This document shows, in pieces, positions 54,387 to 64,000 of a stretch of 64,000 nucleotides of DNA. The DNA is from Allocoleopsis franciscana PCC 7113 (GTDB lineage Bacteria; Cyanobacteriota; Cyanobacteriia; Cyanobacteriales; Coleofasciculaceae), in assembly GCF_000317515.1 (NCBI RefSeq), contig NC_019738.1, forward strand, positions 7,156,001 to 7,220,000, read 5' to 3'. The notes below the pieces were generated by a model. That model saw nothing but the letters and a program-made list of their open reading frames with translations, was not told the DNA's origin and made no database searches. The translations under genes were made by a program, and so were the position numbers. Numbering within the stretch: position 1 is the first letter of the stretch; the number at the start of each line of letters is the position of its first letter.

Positions 54387-57041
54387 TCAAAGCCAATTAC
54401 CAACCAGAACAAAAGGTGCCCAGTAATAAGGATGGTCGTATTTAGCATTTCTTAACAACATGAGCTGAGACTGGCGAACCGCCTCCGCTTTGCTCACCTG
54501 AGTTTGAAATAGCTCTCGATAAAATTCAGCCATGAATTCGGCGGTGGATTCGTCAGAGACTGACCATAGAGTGGCTAAGGTACTACGTGCTCCAGACCTC
54601 ACAGCTAATCCGGCTAATCCCAAGGTTGCCCGCTTGTCACCTGCTGCCGTTTGGCAAGCACTCAGAACCAGTAATTCAATGGGGTTCTGGTTTTGTTGCT
54701 GTCTAGATTGCAATAATTGATCGAAATCCTTAACCTGAATTCGACCATCCCAAGTGAGGAGAAAAGTATCCTCGGCCTTAGAACTAAACTGAGCATGGGT
54801 AGCAAGATGGATTACGGGAAACGGTAGTGCACTAATTTTCTTTTCCAGACTTTTCTGAGTAAATTCCTGATTAAGCAGCACCTCAGAACGAACCTCAGCA
54901 GAAATTTGCTTAAGTTCAGACTTGACTCCTGGCAAGGCGGCAAAGCCTTGACGAGCCTCAGTCAGTCCGCCGGTTAAGGCGGTGAGGCGATTGCGAGCAA
55001 GCGATCGCGACTCCAACAACTGCAACCCTTGGCTAAGGGCAATGCTATATTTCTCCACGAGATACTGTTTTCCATCGTGGAGGGCTGCCATGGGTACATT
55101 CCGCAGAGAACCATCCAGGACAAAGACTAAAGTTTTGACGCCACTTTCCGCTAACCGAGCCTCAGCCGGTCGAATTAGCCAGTCATAAACTTGTTGTGAA
55201 AAGCGCAAACGCAGTTTGCTAGAGAAGGATCGGTTCAAAGATTGTAAGAATTGCTCTAGAATGCCTTCGACTTCACTTTGGCGTAACTGAGTTTGGTAGT
55301 AGCTCAAGGGTTGCCCTGGTAGCGAGAGGATAACCGCAAAGCGATCTGGCAAAATAATCGGATAGATCACGGCAGCCGTGGGATCGACCCGGTCAATCTG
55401 CTCTGGTTTAATATCCAAGCAGGCTTCCCGAAAGAAATTGTCTAATTCAGCGAGCTGGAGTGATTCAATCACTTGGCGAGCTTGTTTGAGGTTTTCTTGC
55501 CTGGAAACTGGATTTTGCTCAGGCACAGATTGCAGGAGCAATTCCACAAGTTCACGATAGATGGGTTCCACACTCTCCCGGAACGAAAACTGCACATCAG
55601 GATTAATCGCCACCAAATCGCTGCGAAGGGATTGTAAAGCCTTGACGGCTTCGGTGTACGCAGCAAGCGCTTGAACGGTGTGCGGCTGGGTTAACCCGCC
55701 CTGAAGTGCTCCTTGATGTTTATGAATTCGACCGAGTTGCCACTGCCAACGATAGGTAATATCCGACGCATTAATCGCCTGAGCTAGACTGAGAGCGTCT
55801 TGAGTCAGTTTTTGTGCTTCTGGAAAGTTCTGTGTGTATTCATAGAGATGTGCCAACTCCCCAAGGGCGTAGGATTCAGCTCTGGAGTCTTTCAGCATTC
55901 TTGCCTGTTGGACGGCTTTGGCTAAAAGTTGAGCCATATCCGGTAAAACGGTTGAAGATGGCAGAGCCTTTGGATCACGTTCAACCTTACCTGTGAGCGC
56001 AGACAATTTGATCAAGCTTTCAGCCAGATTCACCTGAGCGTAGACAGCCGCACGACTAGGGGGTAGTTGGGTGAGGTTCGCCTGAATGGTGGGTAATAAA
56101 GCTTGCGCCGCTTGCCACTGTTCGGTTTGGACGAGCAGGCTCAGTTGGTTGAGTTGCGCTTCTAGTTGACTGAGTGGGTTTGTGGCTTTTTCAGCCGCTT
56201 TTTGATAGAGTTCAGTAGCTTTTGGATAATCTTGTAACGCTCGACGCGTATTCCCTAAACTGAACAGAGTCGCGCTTGTATCCCCGGCAGAATCCAGGCG
56301 CTCTTGAATCGCTAAACTCTGTTCTAAGACTTCCTGGGATTGTTGTAAGTCTCCCACCACTTGCAGGGCAACCCCTAAACTTCGCAGTCCTGAGGCTTTC
56401 AGCAGGGAATCGGGTTGAGTTTGTAGCTTTTGATTGATCTGCTCTAAGTTCGTTTTTGCCCGTCGGTACAGTCCTAACGTTTGCAGAGCTTGGGATTGGT
56501 TAATTTGAGTGCCAATCATTCCGACTTCATCCCCAGCCGCTCTGTAAGCCTGTTCCGCTTGTTTCCAGGTATTGAGAGCGGCTTCGGCTTTTCCTAAGGC
56601 GAGTTGAAGACTGCCTTGGGTATTGAGGACTTGGGCAAGAGTGAAGGGGTTGTTAGGGGGAATGAGCTCTAGGCTTTGGGAAATTGATGACTGTGCCTTT
56701 TGCCATTGTCCTAAGTCTTGATAAGCTAGCGAGAGATAGTTCAGGCTGAGGGCTTGGTTGAGGCGATCGCCTTTTACTTCGTAATCCTGAGCCGCCTGTT
56801 GCCAAACCGCAGCCGCATCTGCAATTTGCCCTGCCTCATACAGAGTTATGCCTTGTGCGAGTTGGGTTGAAGCATGAGTTGTGTGCTGTTCGATGGAGGT
56901 AATGGGAGAACGCTGGGCAGCGACAGGCACAACGGCTGTAATTAGGAACAGGGTTAGCAGTCCCAGGATAAAGTGTGAAATATAGCGTCTCACAATAGAC
57001 CCACTCTTGTGTATTGGAGAAAATTGGCGCAGTCTTTTCAT
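54387..57041 (-). CDS. TPR-CHAT caspase-like protease (cassette B)
   Basis: This 884-residue protein has an N-terminal signal or anchor (about 18-42), a TPR solenoid (LYEAGQIADAAAVWQQAAQD; LNYLSLAYQDLGQWQKAQSS) and a C-terminal CHAT domain with His in IHLATHAQFSSKAEDTF and Cys in LLVLSACQTAAGDKR. Both catalytic residues are intact. It is a clear paralogue of 43619-46426 along the TPR and CHAT parts but has a short, repeat-free linker after the signal. The ATG at 57041 has GAAGG before it; the leader contains tandem TTGAAGG-like heptamers. In cassette A the CHAT gene follows the hemagglutinin directly; here three other genes intervene. Confidence 0.93.
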   Translation of the reverse strand: MKRLRQFSPIHKSGSIVRRYISHFILGLLTLFLITAVVPVAAQRSPITSIEQHTTHASTQLAQGITLYEAGQIADAAAVWQQAAQDYEVKGDRLNQALSLNYLSLAYQDLGQWQKAQSSISQSLELIPPNNPFTLAQVLNTQGSLQLALGKAEAALNTWKQAEQAYRAAGDEVGMIGTQINQSQALQTLGLYRRAKTNLEQINQKLQTQPDSLLKASGLRSLGVALQVVGDLQQSQEVLEQSLAIQERLDSAGDTSATLFSLGNTRRALQDYPKATELYQKAAEKATNPLSQLEAQLNQLSLLVQTEQWQAAQALLPTIQANLTQLPPSRAAVYAQVNLAESLIKLSALTGKVERDPKALPSSTVLPDMAQLLAKAVQQARMLKDSRAESYALGELAHLYEYTQNFPEAQKLTQDALSLAQAINASDITYRWQWQLGRIHKHQGALQGGLTQPHTVQALAAYTEAVKALQSLRSDLVAINPDVQFSFRESVEPIYRELVELLLQSVPEQNPVSRQENLKQARQVIESLQLAELDNFFREACLDIKPEQIDRVDPTAAVIYPIILPDRFAVILSLPGQPLSYYQTQLRQSEVEGILEQFLQSLNRSFSSKLRLRFSQQVYDWLIRPAEARLAESGVKTLVFVLDGSLRNVPMAALHDGKQYLVEKYSIALSQGLQLLESRSLARNRLTALTGGLTEARQGFAALPGVKSELKQISAEVRSEVLLNQEFTQKSLEKKISALPFPVIHLATHAQFSSKAEDTFLLTWDGRIQVKDFDQLLQSRQQQNQNPIELLVLSACQTAAGDKRATLGLAGLAVRSGARSTLATLWSVSDESTAEFMAEFYRELFQTQVSKAEAVRQSQLMLLRNAKYDHPYYWAPFVLVGNWL

Positions 57042-57243
57042 GCCTTCAACCTTCAACGTTCAATCTTCCAACCTTTAACCCTATTTTGAGCAAGTAGCCG
57101 GATGATTGTTAACTTATCAGCCAACTCCGCGTGACATTAGGGCGTGATTCATATCCCTTTGCTATGATTGTCCTGAAATTCCCATAATTTTGTAAGATTC
57201 GTCTGTTTTGTATCACAAACTTTTTTATGAATGTATCCACTGA

Positions 57244-59415
57244 ATGAGTAGGCAGAATCAGCCAGAGTTCCCCTCTAAGGTTTACGCTGAGGCTGTTGTG
57301 CGTTCAGCAACTGGGGCATCGTTGTTGCGCTCTTCAAGTCTCGTCACTAGCGAGAACGTGGTTCAATTTCAGGCAGAACCGAACCTAGTTACATTAGCCA
57401 AAAAACGCTTAGAGGCAGCAGGATTTGAAATTTTAGATGTAGGAAAAGCATTGATCAGCATTGCTGCCGAGCGAGAGGTTTATGAGCGATCGTTTCAGAC
57501 AAGATTGGAGGCAATTGAACGCCCTGTAATCAAAGAAATGGGTGAGCCAAGCACGGCAACATTTATCAATTCAGTTGATGACAAACCCTTTGGGGAGATT
57601 GATACCTCTGATACCCGATGGGATGAGGTATTAGATGGAATTGCGCTCAGCGAACCTGTTTACTATACTCGACCGATTAGTTCTACAACAGAACCACCAG
57701 AAAGAACAGCGAAATATCTGAATGTGCCCGATGATGTGGCTCAAGGATTGAATGCAATTCGGGTTCACCAAAATGGCATCACAGGCAAGGGTGTTCGGGT
57801 TGTCATGATTGACTCTGGGTGGTATCCCCATCCATTTTTTAGAGAACATAACTATAAGGTAAATGTTGTTCTTGCCCCCGGTTCAACCGCTCCTGATCGA
57901 GATGATAGCGGTCATGGTACAGGGGAATCTGCTAATGTTTTTGCCATCGCTCCTGAAGCTGAGCTAACCATGATCAAGTTTGACATGGAACTTGAAGGTA
58001 AGCTCAAAAACGTTACATCCGTTGCGGCCTTGAAGCGAGCGATTGAACAGCGACCTGATATTATTTCTTGCAGTTGGGGATCGGATCAGAGAAGCCGTCA
58101 ACTGTCTCCTCAAGACAAAATGTTAGCGGCTGTTGTTGCTCGTGCAGTTCGTGAGGGGATTGTCGTTATTTTTGCAGCTGGGAATGGAAGCTGGGGTTTT
58201 CCAGCCCAACATCCAGATGCGATCGCAGTTGGGGGAGTTTACAAACATTTAGAGGGATCGTTAAAAGGTCGTTTGGAAGCCAGCAATTACGCCAGCAGCT
58301 TTATCAGCCCCGTTTATCCGGGACGACGAGTTCCAGATTTGTGTGGTTTGGTTGGGCAGCTTCCGGATGGGGCTTATATTATGTTGCCGATTCCTCCTGA
58401 TGGTTGGCGCGATCGGGTGCTATCTGTTGTGGGTGATGGTGATGGCACGTCTCCTTCTGATGGATGGGCCGCATTTAGTGGTACTTCAGCAGCCGCACCT
58501 CAGATAGCGGGTATTTGTGCTTTGATGAAACAGGTTGATCCGAGCTTGTCTCCTGCGAGGGTAAAGCAAATTTTGCAGCAAACGGCTCGTGATGTGGTTG
58601 AAGGGTTTAGCAATCCAGATACAGGGGGTCATCGAGCAAGGGAAGGGCTGGATTTGGCAACGGGTTATGGGTTAGCGGATGCTTATGAAGCGGTAAGGGC
58701 GGTGAAAGCATTCACTAACGAAAATTGTTGTGATGATTGTGCATCTTCAGAACGAACAGAGCAAAATCTTTCAGACATTTATCTAACATCAAAAGTGAGG
58801 AAACCTATGTCTTCTGAATTCCCTAAGTTACAAAAAAAACTCGATGAACTACGTTGGAAATTTGAAAAGGAATTACAAGCAACAATTGATGAGCATGGAC
58901 TAGAGGATGTTGAACTAATAATCAGTGAGGATAACTTCATTCCTCGTTCACCGATTACAAAAATTGCTTTCTCTTTGCGAGAGAGATTAGATAGCTGTTT
59001 TCACACAAAAGAAGAATATGAGAAGTTAAAAGAAGAATATGAAAATTTAACCAAAGCACAACGTAGTAGTTTAAGCAAAGAAGAACGTGTTAAGTTTAAA
59101 ATAGGAATAGGTGAAATTAAGATATGGGAAATTACAGAAGAACATATATCTTCGGCTCAAGCACTGATTAAAATTGGTAGGCATCAAGAATTAGCAATTA
59201 GGGTTTTAACAGAAGCGTTATTGTTAACTGGTGAAGGGGGAAAAGATATCAGAAAAATGGCATCTGAGGCTTTATCAGAGTGCGGTTCTGAGATTGCTAT
59301 GTTTGATGCTAGTAGCAGGGATGAGACTTCATCACTTGACAAGATAGAATTGACATGTGGTAAGTGTAAGAATGGAAAGAGATGCTGTACTAATGGTAAG
59401 TGCTACAGTTGCTAA
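57244..59415 (+). CDS. S8 (subtilisin-like) peptidase with C-terminal helical region and Cys-rich tail
   Basis: In this 723-residue protein residues about 40-90 resemble a subtilase propeptide (LAKKRLEAAGFEILDVGKAL). The catalytic domain has Asp190 in VVMIDSGW, His224 in DDSGHGTGES, oxyanion Asn in FAAGNGSWGFPA and Ser415 in FSGTSAAAPQIAG, so the enzyme looks active. After about residue 490 come a short Cys cluster (NENCCDDCAS), a charged helical region (EEYEKLKEEYENLTKAQ) and a final tail with six cysteines (CGKCKNGKRCCTNGKCYSC). No signal peptide is obvious. It is divergent from CHAT B and overlaps the STAND gene end to end by 4 bp. The C-terminal region matches no family I know. Confidence 0.88.
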   Translation: MSRQNQPEFPSKVYAEAVVRSATGASLLRSSSLVTSENVVQFQAEPNLVTLAKKRLEAAGFEILDVGKALISIAAEREVYERSFQTRLEAIERPVIKEMGEPSTATFINSVDDKPFGEIDTSDTRWDEVLDGIALSEPVYYTRPISSTTEPPERTAKYLNVPDDVAQGLNAIRVHQNGITGKGVRVVMIDSGWYPHPFFREHNYKVNVVLAPGSTAPDRDDSGHGTGESANVFAIAPEAELTMIKFDMELEGKLKNVTSVAALKRAIEQRPDIISCSWGSDQRSRQLSPQDKMLAAVVARAVREGIVVIFAAGNGSWGFPAQHPDAIAVGGVYKHLEGSLKGRLEASNYASSFISPVYPGRRVPDLCGLVGQLPDGAYIMLPIPPDGWRDRVLSVVGDGDGTSPSDGWAAFSGTSAAAPQIAGICALMKQVDPSLSPARVKQILQQTARDVVEGFSNPDTGGHRAREGLDLATGYGLADAYEAVRAVKAFTNENCCDDCASSERTEQNLSDIYLTSKVRKPMSSEFPKLQKKLDELRWKFEKELQATIDEHGLEDVELIISEDNFIPRSPITKIAFSLRERLDSCFHTKEEYEKLKEEYENLTKAQRSSLSKEERVKFKIGIGEIKIWEITEEHISSAQALIKIGRHQELAIRVLTEALLLTGEGGKDIRKMASEALSECGSEIAMFDASSRDETSSLDKIELTCGKCKNGKRCCTNGKCYSC

Positions 59416-61565
59416 AGTCCTAATTTTTTACAATCCCGATCGGGATTAAGCCTGGATTGAGCGGGAATTTTTGTCTTACAAAGTAGCGAGCTCTCAAGTT
59501 GATTATCAGTGATTTTTTGTGCTGTTCTAATATCTGTTCCGTACAAAATACTCTCCTTAAAATCTGCTTCTTGCAGAGAGGCTTCACTAAAATCAGCATC
59601 TCGCAAATTTGCTCCCTGAAAATTAGCTTTTACAAGAAAAGCTTTTTGGAAATTAGTATTTTCAAGTTGAGATAACCTAAAGTTAGATCTAAATAAAGTT
59701 GCGCCACTTAGGTTCAACCCACTCAAGTTATCATTACAAAAATTAGCCTCTTCTAGGTGGTCTTTCTGTCCTGTTAAAACTAAGTACCAAACCAATATAG
59801 ACATCTCAAGATTTTGTTGACATTTTGCATCCTCTCTATAGATAGTTGTCTGGGCTAAGATCAAAAGAAAAAAATGAATAGGAATGAGCGTTCCCATAAA
59901 CGGTATGATGGCAATTTTCAAAAATCCGTGTAGCTGTTTTCTACGACTAGCTTTCACAAACTCTTTTGCTAATCCAGATAGTGAAATTTCAGAGTTGTGA
60001 GCTTGCATAAACTCCCTAGCATCACGGAGCGATCGCCCCTGAAGCAGATAATCTTTAGATTTTTTATGGTGCTTCCATTCTTCGGCGGCATCTTCAATTT
60101 TGCGTTTTTTCCGCAGGGCTTCTCGACATTCCTTGAGCCAATCTCTCAATTGTTTCCAATTGCGGATCAGGGCTTCGTGGGCGACTTCGATCATTTCGAT
60201 CATTTCGCCATATTGTTTATCGGAGAAGCGAACTAAGAAACGAACTCTAGGTTCCGCAAAAAGATTGATAATTGACCGGACACGGATTTCATCGCCGTCG
60301 CTGGCGATTAGTTCTGATACCGCCGCACGGCGACGGGTATCTCCGCTATCTTCATTCAATTGCACCAGTGCCAAAAAGATGCAACGAGCGATCGCTTGAT
60401 CATCAGCACTCAAGGATTGATACAGATGTTGAGCTTCACCCGCTAGTGCACCTCCTACACCACCAATGTTGTGCAAGGTTGTTGCCGGATCGACCCCGTT
60501 TTGCAAGCCTTCCCAAATCCGGGTTAGGGCAAACTGTAGTAGAGGGAGTGCACCTTCTCTTCCCTGAGTTTGCTCAACCAAGAGCTTAACGATCGCTTTA
60601 TCTAACTTATTTCCTGCCTGTTCTGCGGGTTTAGCAATGGCAATCTCTAGCTCCTCTGGTTGCATAATCGGCACCAGAAACCCCTGAGTTGAAAAGAGTT
60701 TGTTTAAGCGTGGGTGTTGCTGAGTGTCCCCTAAAAAGTCACTTCGTAGCGTGAGAATAACAGATACCCGTTTGGTTGGTTCTGCTGCCGCACAAAGCAA
60801 ATTCTCAATAAACGCATCCCGTTCAGCAATAAATGCCTCTCGTTCAGTCTTCTCTAACGAAAACGCATAGGTATAAACCTCTTCAAATTGATCCACCAAA
60901 ATAATCAAGGGAGAGAACTCGATATCAGGTAATACATCGGCAATGCGCCTTAATCCCTCATAGTTACCTGCATCACTCTTTGTTGCGAGAACTCGTTCAA
61001 ATTCCTGTGCTTTTTCTACTGGTGTTGAGTCGTTTTTGACAATCCGCGCCAACACTGTTGCTAAAGCTTCCAGAGGATGGGTTCCGGGTACAAGTACCGC
61101 CAATCGAGCGTGATCTCGACCTGGCAAGGGTTTTTTCCCCAAAGCTGGAATAAGTCCTGCTCGTGCCAGAGATGATTTTCCTGAACCCGATGGCCCATAA
61201 ATCGGCAGTACCCGGACTGTCGATTGGTGTTCATGAAGATGGCAGAACTTCTCCCACAGTTGCTCGATTTGCGTTTCGCGCCCAAAAAAGCGATCGCCAT
61301 CGATTTCTCGAAATGCCAGCAACCCTCGATAGGGATTATCCCTTAAGTTTGTAGTATCAGGTTGAGGCGATTTGGCTTCAGTTTGAGCATGGGATAGGTA
61401 AACTGTGAGGTGACCAATTGCTAAACCACCCATCATCTGGGCGATGATCTGTCCCTGAGTTTCGTCTATCTCTTGGCTAATCCGGTTAATGGGTGCAGGA
61501 GGGAAAGCTGATTCAGAATCAGGAGGAGTTGGCATAATGCGATCGCTTTTAATCTCTCCAGGCAC
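59412..61565 (-). CDS. STAND NTPase (nSTAND1-like) with pentapeptide C-terminus and N-terminal amyloid-like motif
   Basis: This 717-residue protein starts with a GTG directly after the stop of the small upstream gene. Residues 36-53 (TQGQIIAQMMGGLAIGHL) resemble the C-terminal motif of that neighbour. The NTPase core follows NPYRGLLAFREIDGDRFFGRE: P-loop YGPSGSGKSSLARAGLIPAL near 130, Walker B LIILVDQFEEVYTY, LTLRSDFLGD, LPLLQFALTRIWE, and the helical VAHEALIRNWKQLRDWL. After a hydrophobic stretch (about 570-595) the C-terminus is pentapeptide repeats (LNLSGATLFRSNFRLSQLENTNF) acting as a likely sensor. It is probably an NLR-like switch that triggers the upstream effector. Confidence 0.88.
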   Translation of the reverse strand: MPGEIKSDRIMPTPPDSESAFPPAPINRISQEIDETQGQIIAQMMGGLAIGHLTVYLSHAQTEAKSPQPDTTNLRDNPYRGLLAFREIDGDRFFGRETQIEQLWEKFCHLHEHQSTVRVLPIYGPSGSGKSSLARAGLIPALGKKPLPGRDHARLAVLVPGTHPLEALATVLARIVKNDSTPVEKAQEFERVLATKSDAGNYEGLRRIADVLPDIEFSPLIILVDQFEEVYTYAFSLEKTEREAFIAERDAFIENLLCAAAEPTKRVSVILTLRSDFLGDTQQHPRLNKLFSTQGFLVPIMQPEELEIAIAKPAEQAGNKLDKAIVKLLVEQTQGREGALPLLQFALTRIWEGLQNGVDPATTLHNIGGVGGALAGEAQHLYQSLSADDQAIARCIFLALVQLNEDSGDTRRRAAVSELIASDGDEIRVRSIINLFAEPRVRFLVRFSDKQYGEMIEMIEVAHEALIRNWKQLRDWLKECREALRKKRKIEDAAEEWKHHKKSKDYLLQGRSLRDAREFMQAHNSEISLSGLAKEFVKASRRKQLHGFLKIAIIPFMGTLIPIHFFLLILAQTTIYREDAKCQQNLEMSILVWYLVLTGQKDHLEEANFCNDNLSGLNLSGATLFRSNFRLSQLENTNFQKAFLVKANFQGANLRDADFSEASLQEADFKESILYGTDIRTAQKITDNQLESSLLCKTKIPAQSRLNPDRDCKKLGL

Positions 61566-62000
61566 CTACAGGTTTACATCACCGTGAATAGCATCAATAT
61601 TACCGATTGACTTACCACCTGTCTGTTGCCCCGTTACCTGTCCTTTAGTATTTTGGATAGTTTGATTAATTTGTGTGCCCGAAGTTGCTTCAGATTTCTC
61701 CTGCATAATTTGAGCGATCGCTTCTGCTAACTCTTGGTCTTCGTCGAATAACTTCTTCAATTGCTTCTGAAAGACCTTTCTATAATCTTCATCCTCTGGA
61801 TCTGTAGATACTAAGTTAACCGCACTCTTGGCATCTTCCTTGGCTTCAACTTTTGGCTGTAACTTGCCCCAAACTTTCTTCGCTTTGTTCCAAGAATCTT
61901 CACCAAATTTAGTCGCAACACTTTCGGCTGATTTCTCACCGAACTTAATCAGAAAGGGTAGAAAAGGAGTCAAAAAAGCCGTTAGCGCGATAACATCCAT
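61566..62000 (-). CDS. Candidate Bell-like cell-death effector with C-terminal amyloid-like motif
   Basis: This is a 144-residue protein. The N-terminal 100 residues are helical and begin MDVIALTAFLTPFLPFLIKF, then FGEKSAESVATKFGEDSW and KQLKKLFDEDQELAEAIAQI. This layout resembles the Bell domain described for bacterial amyloid-signalling effectors, analogous to fungal HeLo/HELL pore-formers. The C-terminus (TKGQVTGQQTGGKSIGNI) is Gln/Asn/Gly-rich and matches the N-terminal motif of the adjoining STAND protein at 8 of 18 positions. Effector and NLR encoded side by side with a shared motif is the hallmark of such systems. The gene ends one base before the STAND start. An upstream start at 62021 adds seven residues. 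The fold assignment is by pattern only. Confidence 0.65.
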   Translation of the reverse strand: MDVIALTAFLTPFLPFLIKFGEKSAESVATKFGEDSWNKAKKVWGKLQPKVEAKEDAKSAVNLVSTDPEDEDYRKVFQKQLKKLFDEDQELAEAIAQIMQEKSEATSGTQINQTIQNTKGQVTGQQTGGKSIGNIDAIHGDVNL

Positions 62001-62102
62001 ATCCTCTATTCTCTCCCTCAAAATTTCTCTTCGTTGCTCAACTTATAATTTTCTACAACTGCCGTTTGTCGTATTCCTGAAAAATCCTATTTAACAACCA
62101 AA

Positions 62103-64000
62103 TTACCGTTGGGAGTTAAACGTCTGGCAATCTGGGGGTCTAGACCAAGGATTTTGAGGAGTAACATCCGGTGCGTGAGCCACCAACTCTACCTCACCTT
62201 TGGCATTCCTCACCCATCCCGTCGCCTCAACCAGTGGCGATTGAGGATGAGTCGTTGCCAAGTCTCGCCGTTTCCTTTGGGTATCTTCTCTCCCTACCCT
62301 TCTTGGAGGGCGTAAATCCCGCCAAACGGTCTGACCTCTAAGCGTCTGAGTCGGGTCTTCGGGTAAACCGCCTCGTCCAGTAACAACAAAGCTACTCCCA
62401 CTGTCAGCCGAGCATCCCGTGGCAACTAACCCTGTCACATCAACGACCTCAACCGGCAATTCCACTAATCCCTGAGAGGGGTCAGCACCCAGTTGGTTAA
62501 TTTCCACCACACCATTGACTCCCAAGGTTGAACTCGCTGTAATCGAACTATCGGGGGACACAAAAATTCCTTGAGTTGTAATGCGGATATTCCCGCCAGC
62601 GCCTTGGAAGGCATTGGCATTAATGCTGCTTTTCTCAAAAAGCGCTAAAACACCAGCCTTGATGGTAATATTGCCCCCATTGCCACCGCCTGTATCCTCA
62701 GTGCCAGCCTGAGTGGAGATTTGACTGCCGTTACGCAGCACTAAATCTTGTTTTACTTGCAAGTCAATATCCCCACCTTGACCTAAGATACTGGTTGCAC
62801 TCATCCGTCCTTGATTGTCCAGCAAGATAGAGTCAGCCCTGACGTTCAGGTCGCCCGGTAACCCTGTAGCTGTACTTCTGACACCGATTTCTGCTCCATC
62901 CCGAACCGTTAACCGCCCAGTTTGAATCGTCAAGTCACCTGCCTTTCCCGCACCACGGGTATTCGTTTCGATGGCGCTAGGCACAATGCCATCACCAATG
63001 ATGCCGAAAGAAACCGCTTCGACAGAAGGAGCAACACCTGTCGCAAAGCCGCTGACATCAACAGACTCAGACGCATTTACATTTAATGTTCCTGCGGTTC
63101 CACCACTACCCGTTGCCCCTGAAATTTGGGCACCGTTTTGCACCGTCAATCGCCGCGAAGTAACCGTTAAGTTCCCTGCTGAAGAATTCCCAGGTTGCCC
63201 TGGTACAGTCAGCAGCGAGGTAGACGAGAGCAACCCCCCTATAAACCGACCATCAGCCGATATACCGCTGAGTTCGACTGTATCAGCCGTGACAGTCAAA
63301 TCACCGCCTCGCCCCGCCCCCGCCGTCGAGGTTGAAATTTGGGTGCCGTCGGCAACCACAAGCTGATGGGTGCTAACACGGATATCACCCGCATCGCCCT
63401 TACCCAGCGCTGTCGTAAATAAGCCCCCAGGAACCGCGACTCCGGCGGGAGTTCCCCTCATTTCTACCGTATTAGCCGTTACGGTGATACTGCCCCCTGT
63501 ACCTGTACTGGTAGGCCCTGGAGTGGTACTCAGGGAGGAGCCATCTAAGAGTCGTAACTGCTTAGCGGTAAGGTTTATATTGCCTGCATTGCCCGTGCCA
63601 GCCGTTCCTGTAAACACGAGGGTACCATGGCTGAATTCGGCTAACTCAGAAACCCGAAAAGTTAAATTTCCTCCATTGCCATTGAGCAAAGCTGGGGTAA
63701 ATAGGTTGGCACCGTTTTGAACTTTCAACTGACTCGCGTCAATTGTCATATCCCCAGCTTTGCCGCTACCCACGCTCAAGCTATACAAACCATCACTAAG
63801 GCTGAGGGGGTTAAAGGTTCCTGTCAGTAGCTGTTGCGATGTGACAAAAGGAGTCGTTCCGGTCAGTTCTACCGTATCAGCGCGGACAGTCAGATTTCCT
63901 GCCGCACCCGAACCAAAGGTAGATGTAGACACAAAGGCTCCCTCTTGCATTCGGAACTGATTGGCCTGTATGTCGATACCCCCACCGTTAAAATTACCAA
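62103..64000 (-). CDS. Filamentous-hemagglutinin-like secreted protein, C-terminal part (cassette B, cut by window edge)
   Basis: The frame stays open to the end of the window, so at least 632 C-terminal residues are visible and the N-terminal signal and secretion domain lie outside. What is seen is a beta-helix of about 50-residue repeats (GNAGNINLTAKQLRLLDGSSL; GAGRGGDLTVTADTVELSG) and the same C-terminal signature as the cassette A protein: SFVVTGRGGLPEDP, VWRDLRPP, VEATGWVRNAKG. The Cys in ATGCSADS is also conserved between the two. Downstream, instead of the CHAT gene found in cassette A, come the effector-STAND pair and the S8 peptidase. Confidence 0.9.
   Translation of the reverse strand, partial: GNFNGGGIDIQANQFRMQEGAFVSTSTFGSGAAGNLTVRADTVELTGTTPFVTSQQLLTGTFNPLSLSDGLYSLSVGSGKAGDMTIDASQLKVQNGANLFTPALLNGNGGNLTFRVSELAEFSHGTLVFTGTAGTGNAGNINLTAKQLRLLDGSSLSTTPGPTSTGTGGSITVTANTVEMRGTPAGVAVPGGLFTTALGKGDAGDIRVSTHQLVVADGTQISTSTAGAGRGGDLTVTADTVELSGISADGRFIGGLLSSTSLLTVPGQPGNSSAGNLTVTSRRLTVQNGAQISGATGSGGTAGTLNVNASESVDVSGFATGVAPSVEAVSFGIIGDGIVPSAIETNTRGAGKAGDLTIQTGRLTVRDGAEIGVRSTATGLPGDLNVRADSILLDNQGRMSATSILGQGGDIDLQVKQDLVLRNGSQISTQAGTEDTGGGNGGNITIKAGVLALFEKSSINANAFQGAGGNIRITTQGIFVSPDSSITASSTLGVNGVVEINQLGADPSQGLVELPVEVVDVTGLVATGCSADSGSSFVVTGRGGLPEDPTQTLRGQTVWRDLRPPRRVGREDTQRKRRDLATTHPQSPLVEATGWVRNAKGEVELVAHAPDVTPQNPWSRPPDCQTFNSQR

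Follow-up and report, generated by a model that had tools for sequence, protein, structure and literature searches.

A 2020 study by Dyrka et al. (J Mol Biol) reportedly described pairs of the BASS/Bell type. NLR signalosomes of this type are found in multicellular bacteria, cyanobacteria included (PMC7889193, PMC8086366). What is known of bacterial amyloid signalling driven by NLRs comes largely from prediction. In the fungal NWD2/HET-S and PNT1/HELLP/SBP systems a short matching motif couples an NLR to a membrane-active effector, with PNT1 governing two effectors from one cluster (PMC7885112).

The locus described here lies in a 64,000-nucleotide stretch of the Allocoleopsis franciscana PCC 7113 genome, which is referred to as the window. 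On the minus strand, an effector gene (61566..62000; 144 aa from the ATG at 62000 in the ORF list, or 151 aa from an alternative TTG start at 62021) is followed by a gene for a STAND NTPase, hereafter the receptor (59412..61565; 717 aa from a GTG, based on the ORF list and Pfam). An ATG at 61535, giving 707 aa, is the more likely receptor start, because a homologue (G001) begins MTTPPDSES. The two genes are adjacent with a gap of about 30 bp, and homologous effector-receptor pairs are also adjacent in L010, L012, L013 and other loci. A sequence-only reading of the window had already picked out this pair, and an ORF check bore out the positions and strand it gave for both genes; it did not mention the receptor transmembrane helix or the linked subtilase that are considered below.

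The pair resembles BASS/Bell systems in that the genes are adjacent and the NLR carries at its N-terminus the C-terminal motif of a small helical effector that has a hydrophobic helix; in addition, CHAT-linked versions occur in both. It differs from them in having a receptor that is predicted to be membrane-spanning, a pentapeptide sensor and a linked pro-subtilase. The motif coupling of an NLR to a putative membrane-active effector is also shared with the fungal systems, whereas the third gene at the window locus, unlike the PNT1/HELLP/SBP cluster, encodes a subtilase that is motif-free and convergent. We consider it probable that the locus encodes a two-gene signalling pair of the NLR/HET-S and BASS/Bell kind that has a membrane receptor and a linked protease, and that this pair is a cell-suicide switch comparable to the one in fungal prion incompatibility.

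The shared motif was found by local alignment as QINQTIQNTKGQVTGQQTGGKSIGNI in the effector (residues 110-135; 61596..61673, minus strand) and as RISQEIDETQGQIIAQMMGGLAIGHL in the receptor (residues 28-53; 61407..61484, minus strand), and both copies are kept in homologues. The two segments form an ungapped 26-residue local match with a BLOSUM62 score of 61, which was reached by none of 20,000 composition-preserving shuffles (p = 5e-5). The peptides originally proposed were exact to the letter, with 8 of 18 positions identical; the match is longer than was first noted (26 aligned residues against 18). Among 354 adjacent same-strand gene pairs from the collected loci the median score was 24, and the pairs scoring at least 61 were mostly from the same system, the remainder being repeat proteins or neighbouring paralogues. 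It might be argued that two Q/G-rich segments of low complexity resemble each other by chance, as G, Q and hydrophobic residues are abundant in both; however, the significance survives shuffles that keep the composition, and the pairing is conserved and covaries over 26 locus pairs. We regard this explanation as refuted.

Homologous pairs were gathered from relatives, from 56 loci of GTDB genomes (Chloroflexi being also among the source genomes) and from order-wide and phylum-wide searches, which found effector homologues in 76/389 and 27/386 genomes, respectively, in samples that overlap. The C-terminal 60 residues of each effector were compared with the first 120 residues encoded by the next gene, and many pairs gave p = 0.002, the floor of this test. 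The sequence-only reading would have been contradicted by a paired motif that is not conserved across homologous gene pairs, and the pairing held: in 26 such pairs matched partners scored a mean of 68.3 and mismatched partners 37.8, with none of 20,000 partner permutations reaching the observed sum (p = 5e-5). Significant pairing with the next gene was not found at L020, L036, L041, L043, L047, L052, L059, L065, L071 and L072, and some of these next ORFs probably do not encode the partner.

The window partner ranked 7th of 26, and mismatched partners of the same class could outscore the true one. Since same-class foreign partners score as well, specificity lies between motif classes, which are GQVIGQMTGG.AIG, SQAIANM.NSTAINV, STVKQVGKIDANQV, NVVQN.TG...IGRVGG, ERAIALGD and GGDVKGVSAYDISGG, the last being the motif at L032. 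The class tracks the partner while the helical domain of the effector stays alignable: GQVIGQMTGG.AIG or SQAIANM.NSTAINV is found in nSTAND1-pentapeptide receptors, STVKQVGKIDANQV in NB-ARC-TPR receptors and a motif of the NQAIGK or ERAIALGD type in WD40 receptors. L012 (SQAIANM) and the window (GQIIAQM) have common synteny, subtilase included, so that effector and receptor have both switched class at a single locus. The effector profile alone matches partner NTPases (E = 4e-6 at L018), because the profile includes the motif. We conclude that the motifs match and covary between effector and receptor.

A caspase (C14) gene precedes an nSTAND1-pentapeptide receptor gene, with a convergent subtilase, at two sister loci, L132 (2314-3291 and 3380-5566) and L139 (2070-3116 and 3147-5360). 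In L139 the caspase gene occupies the effector position and its product carries a different motif, ETHISGGFNQPGWKVG, which is matched in the receptor N-terminus with a score of 73. The L132 caspase tail diverges after KQETHISGG, probably through a frameshift. Two nSTAND1-pentapeptide receptors (L131 8794-10863 and L138 2614-4803) have no adjacent effector and a motif-like N-terminus, HSQVDGEIKGLSIGTGNV; their partner is possibly encoded elsewhere in the genome. At L011 (2764-5001) the effector partner has a similar N-terminal motif and no Pfam domain, and represents an unrecognised receptor type.

The core of the motif is GQ[VAI][IA][GA], which departs from the RHIM/BASS3/PP core G-[IV]-Q-[IV]-G, and the tetrad [IVL]Q[IVLC]G is absent on either side of the 26 effector-receptor pairs. 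RHIM membership was rejected because the core tetrad is missing in all of them. The comparison with BASS families rests on one published BASS3 peptide, with which the window motifs gave no alignment above chance. The kinship with RHIM that had been suggested is thus weak; the assignment to a BASS-type pair is supported, as the pairing is conserved, covarying and class-swapped and the effector is laid out as expected. Following the BASS3 peptide towards a known Bell protein in plasmids led only to an HTH protein and to an ORF of 61 codons surrounded by transposase genes, neither of them useful for a comparison with Bell.

The effector comprises a hydrophobic segment (residues 3-21), a helical bundle to about residue 100 and the motif-bearing tail. 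An AlphaFold2 model built with 40 homologues places helices over residues 3-100 (pLDDT mostly about 80-88) and predicts residues 103-144 to be disordered (pLDDT < 50), a helical bundle with hydrophobic helix and disordered motif tail being the layout of BASS/Bell effectors. P15, L17, W44, L47, P49 and K50 are invariant in the 40 effector sequences. Searches of the bundle fold against the PDB, with HeLo, MLKL and RPW8 in view, gave no confident match (the lowest Foldseek E was 0.59 and the highest VIA Z 4.1), and matches to PA28, FAT and a hantavirus coiled coil were dismissed as generic helix pairings. No credible model match for the effector was found in Pfam, NCBIfam or PADLOC; hits to VSG_B, LRRFIP, AbiJ_NTD5, Cas13a, Cas12b and others were set aside as weak and located in coiled or low-complexity stretches, and they fall under the curated cut-off wherever one exists.

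At L026, L029, L030, L031, L033, L050 and L056 the effector ORF is extended N-terminally by roughly 195-225 residues. The extensions form one family, judged on sequences from six of the seven loci, and the one that was scanned (L026) matches CHAT (E = 6.5e-8), a domain also known from the literature on BASS (PMC7889193). Effector homologues are also present on conjugative plasmids of Acaryochloris (L144 4923-8783) and Aulosira (L145 4944-9160), where the large gene that follows encodes an fxsT-annotated TPR protein and an AAA_16 protein, respectively; these copies may indicate that the module is mobile.

A potential explanation for the shared motif that would not need to invoke amyloid templating is that it acts as a homotypic adaptor (a beta-arch, a hairpin or a short solenoid dimer) which recruits the effector in the manner of an effector-associated domain (EAD). 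Coupling of STAND proteins to effectors through EADs is well described for conflict systems (Kaur et al., PMC7159879, PMC8195603), which also have an nSTAND1 NTPase, C-terminal super-structure repeats and neighbouring proteases and caspases; a word match for 'amyloid' in the two papers returned nothing in one and only a reference title in the other. The regularly spaced G/N/Q-rich motif classes could form small beta-solenoids, and AlphaFold gives no structure for the effector tail. EADs, on the other hand, measure about 80-100 residues, and their globular layout differs from a short motif with a linker. The window proteins are coupled through a short linear motif of 25-30 residues, C-terminal on the effector, N-terminal on the receptor and with a disordered linker, which is the layout of amyloid signalling. 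An archaeal NLR-side peptide, KSRFDQRGQKVIGQQINVAGDATLP, of a composition loosely like that of the window motif, forms amyloid-like aggregates (PMC8086366) and can be aligned marginally with the motif of the window effector (p = 0.02, uncorrected). We therefore think the adaptor explanation quite improbable.

The receptor contains an nSTAND1 NTPase domain with the P-loop GPSGSGKS (residues 78-504; 60054..61334, minus strand; PF20703, E = 2.1e-104). It is followed by a predicted transmembrane helix (residues 551-569; 59859..59915, minus strand) and a C-terminal region (59412..59858, minus strand) with pentapeptide repeats at residues about 604-683. The helix was recognised from hydropathy in 17 homologues, in all of which a hydrophobic segment after the NTPase has a mean hydropathy of 1.9-2.6 over 19 residues. 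K and R number 3-6 per 20 residues before the segment and 1-4 after it, and are commoner before than after in 15 of the 17, from which the N-terminal side is predicted to be cytoplasmic and the receptor to span the membrane. C582, C610 and C696 are invariant in 17/17 homologues, at identities down to 31%, and a fourth cysteine (C712) is kept in 13 of them. All of these conserved cysteines lie after the predicted helix, and none before it is invariant. The simplest reading of this pattern is that the C-terminus is an extracytoplasmic, disulphide-stabilised sensor. The pentapeptide C-terminus itself had been pointed out before, as an unusual sensor; it is indeed present (Pfam, 8e-14), and it is no one-off oddity, since a conserved receptor subtype carries it. 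A transmembrane helix ahead of the pentapeptide domain, with three invariant cysteines behind it, appears to be a new feature.

By analogy with the BASS and HET-S systems, and in view of how the two proteins are built, we infer amyloid templating, membrane attack and cell death. The pentapeptide domain, lying across the membrane from the NTPase, would sense a trigger, upon which the nSTAND1 NTPase would oligomerise, as in the STAND family generally, and gather its N-terminal motifs in the cytoplasm. The clustered receptor motifs would then act as seeds on which the matching motif in the effector tail assembles into a cross-beta structure, and the clustered effector bundles would push their hydrophobic N-termini into the membrane, leading to depolarisation and to death or arrest. 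Alternatively, the module could be a regulator in which effector assembly drives a response short of death, for example differentiation or a remodelling of the membrane. No PADLOC defence model scored above noise for either effector or receptor, which would fit such a role; however, the CHAT-extended effectors and the replacement of the effector by a caspase suggest an executioner, and a non-lethal role seems to us unlikely.

The receptor gene is convergent with a subtilase gene (57244..59415, plus strand, 723 aa) that overlaps the receptor stop by 4 bp. The subtilase has a prodomain at residues about 12-95, predicted with confidence from the structural model, an S8 catalytic domain (residues 181-476) with the triad D190, H224 and S415, which is invariant in 21 aligned homologues, and a helical C-terminal region (residues 527-695) in the predicted structure. 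The combination of a D/H/S triad and an N-terminal prodomain is that of an S8 zymogen, and the best fold match is to intact pro-kumamolisin (1t1e, E = 1e-18), with prosubtilisins matching too. With a cut-off of E <= 1e-60, a subtilase homologue was found in 35/389 genomes; cross-tabulation with the effector search of the same 389 genomes showed that it adjoins the effector-receptor pair in 12 genomes from 7 genera and at least six cyanobacterial families. It can be seen that the association follows the receptor type. In the 56-locus set the subtilase occurs only at L018, L022, L023, L039, L054 and L061. The receptor at these loci is of the nSTAND1-pentapeptide type or, in L023, truncated, the type having been assigned by Pfam scans for L018, L022 and L061, by identity with the L012 locus for L039 and by alignment for L054.

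We considered whether the subtilase is simply an unrelated convergent neighbour, kept by shared locus ancestry or a shared terminator and standing outside the signalling. It is encoded on the opposite strand, no copy of the motif was found in it (p 0.27-0.97) and many loci at which the effector is paired with a WD40 or TPR receptor lack it. Against this, the link recurs in those six or more families, and a STAND gene is immediately convergent with the subtilase in 16 of the 19 loci read and within about 4 kb in all 19, lying beyond inserted genes in the other three. The subtilase partner is an nSTAND1-pentapeptide protein with a Bell-like effector, with a caspase (L132, L139) or alone (L131, L138), or else an unrelated NACHT/HEAT protein (L133, L134, L135, L136, L137 and L140; HEAT and NCH4 matches at L133). 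Gene insertions in L124/L125 and between subtilase and STAND partner in L130 did not break the link. The bystander explanation is accordingly doubtful, and from the linkage we infer that the subtilase is a functional partner of the receptor. A limited word-match literature search found no prior report of a receptor-subtilase link, and a pro-subtilase gene accompanying this receptor type appears to be a new feature.

At the NACHT loci, several of the copies of that protein have a signal-peptide-like N-terminus. The insertion in L124 (6078-6742) and L125 (6221-6885) is a pair of short ORFs (81 and 140 aa) between receptor and subtilase, the second of which resembles a PIN-domain toxin. In L129 (4506-5714) the subtilase is cut to 402 aa and overlaps the receptor 3' end by 138 bp, which may reflect either a decaying copy or an assembly effect.

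With its linkage, intact triad and prodomain, the pro-subtilase would belong to this receptor type, most likely as a proteolytic regulator or a second executioner, because it holds no copy of the motif. A subtilisin-like protease is also genetically linked to a membrane-killing protein in fungi, where HET-Q2 cleaves a gasdermin, HET-Q1 being the gasdermin of that pair (PMC12881547); in contrast, the window locus has no gasdermin. Our tentative proposal, which we put forward as a possibility, is a membrane-spanning three-part amyloid signalosome, with an extracytoplasmic, disulphide-stabilised pentapeptide sensor, cytoplasmic templating, driven across the membrane, onto a pore-forming effector and a conserved, obligate pro-subtilase regulator (activator, off-switch or second executioner); receptor and subtilase would form a lasting core, onto which effectors of the Bell or caspase kind are swapped along with the motifs that match them. 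If this is correct, the sensing domain would be reachable from outside the cytoplasm, the loci would provide a natural series in which a change of effector goes with a change of motif, and the protease partner would be open to knock-out, making proteolytic control of bacterial amyloid-triggered death testable, as with the proteases that control gasdermins.

Adjoining the subtilase is a TPR-CHAT protease gene (54387-57056, minus strand), whose homologue occupies the corresponding position in L010 (9038-11710), so that the CHAT gene may be part of a larger locus. A gene at 62103-63998, on the strand of the effector gene and upstream of it, encodes a repetitive haemagglutinin-like protein, probably secreted and with no Pfam match in the portion inside the window; its homologue keeps its place in L010 (807-3578).
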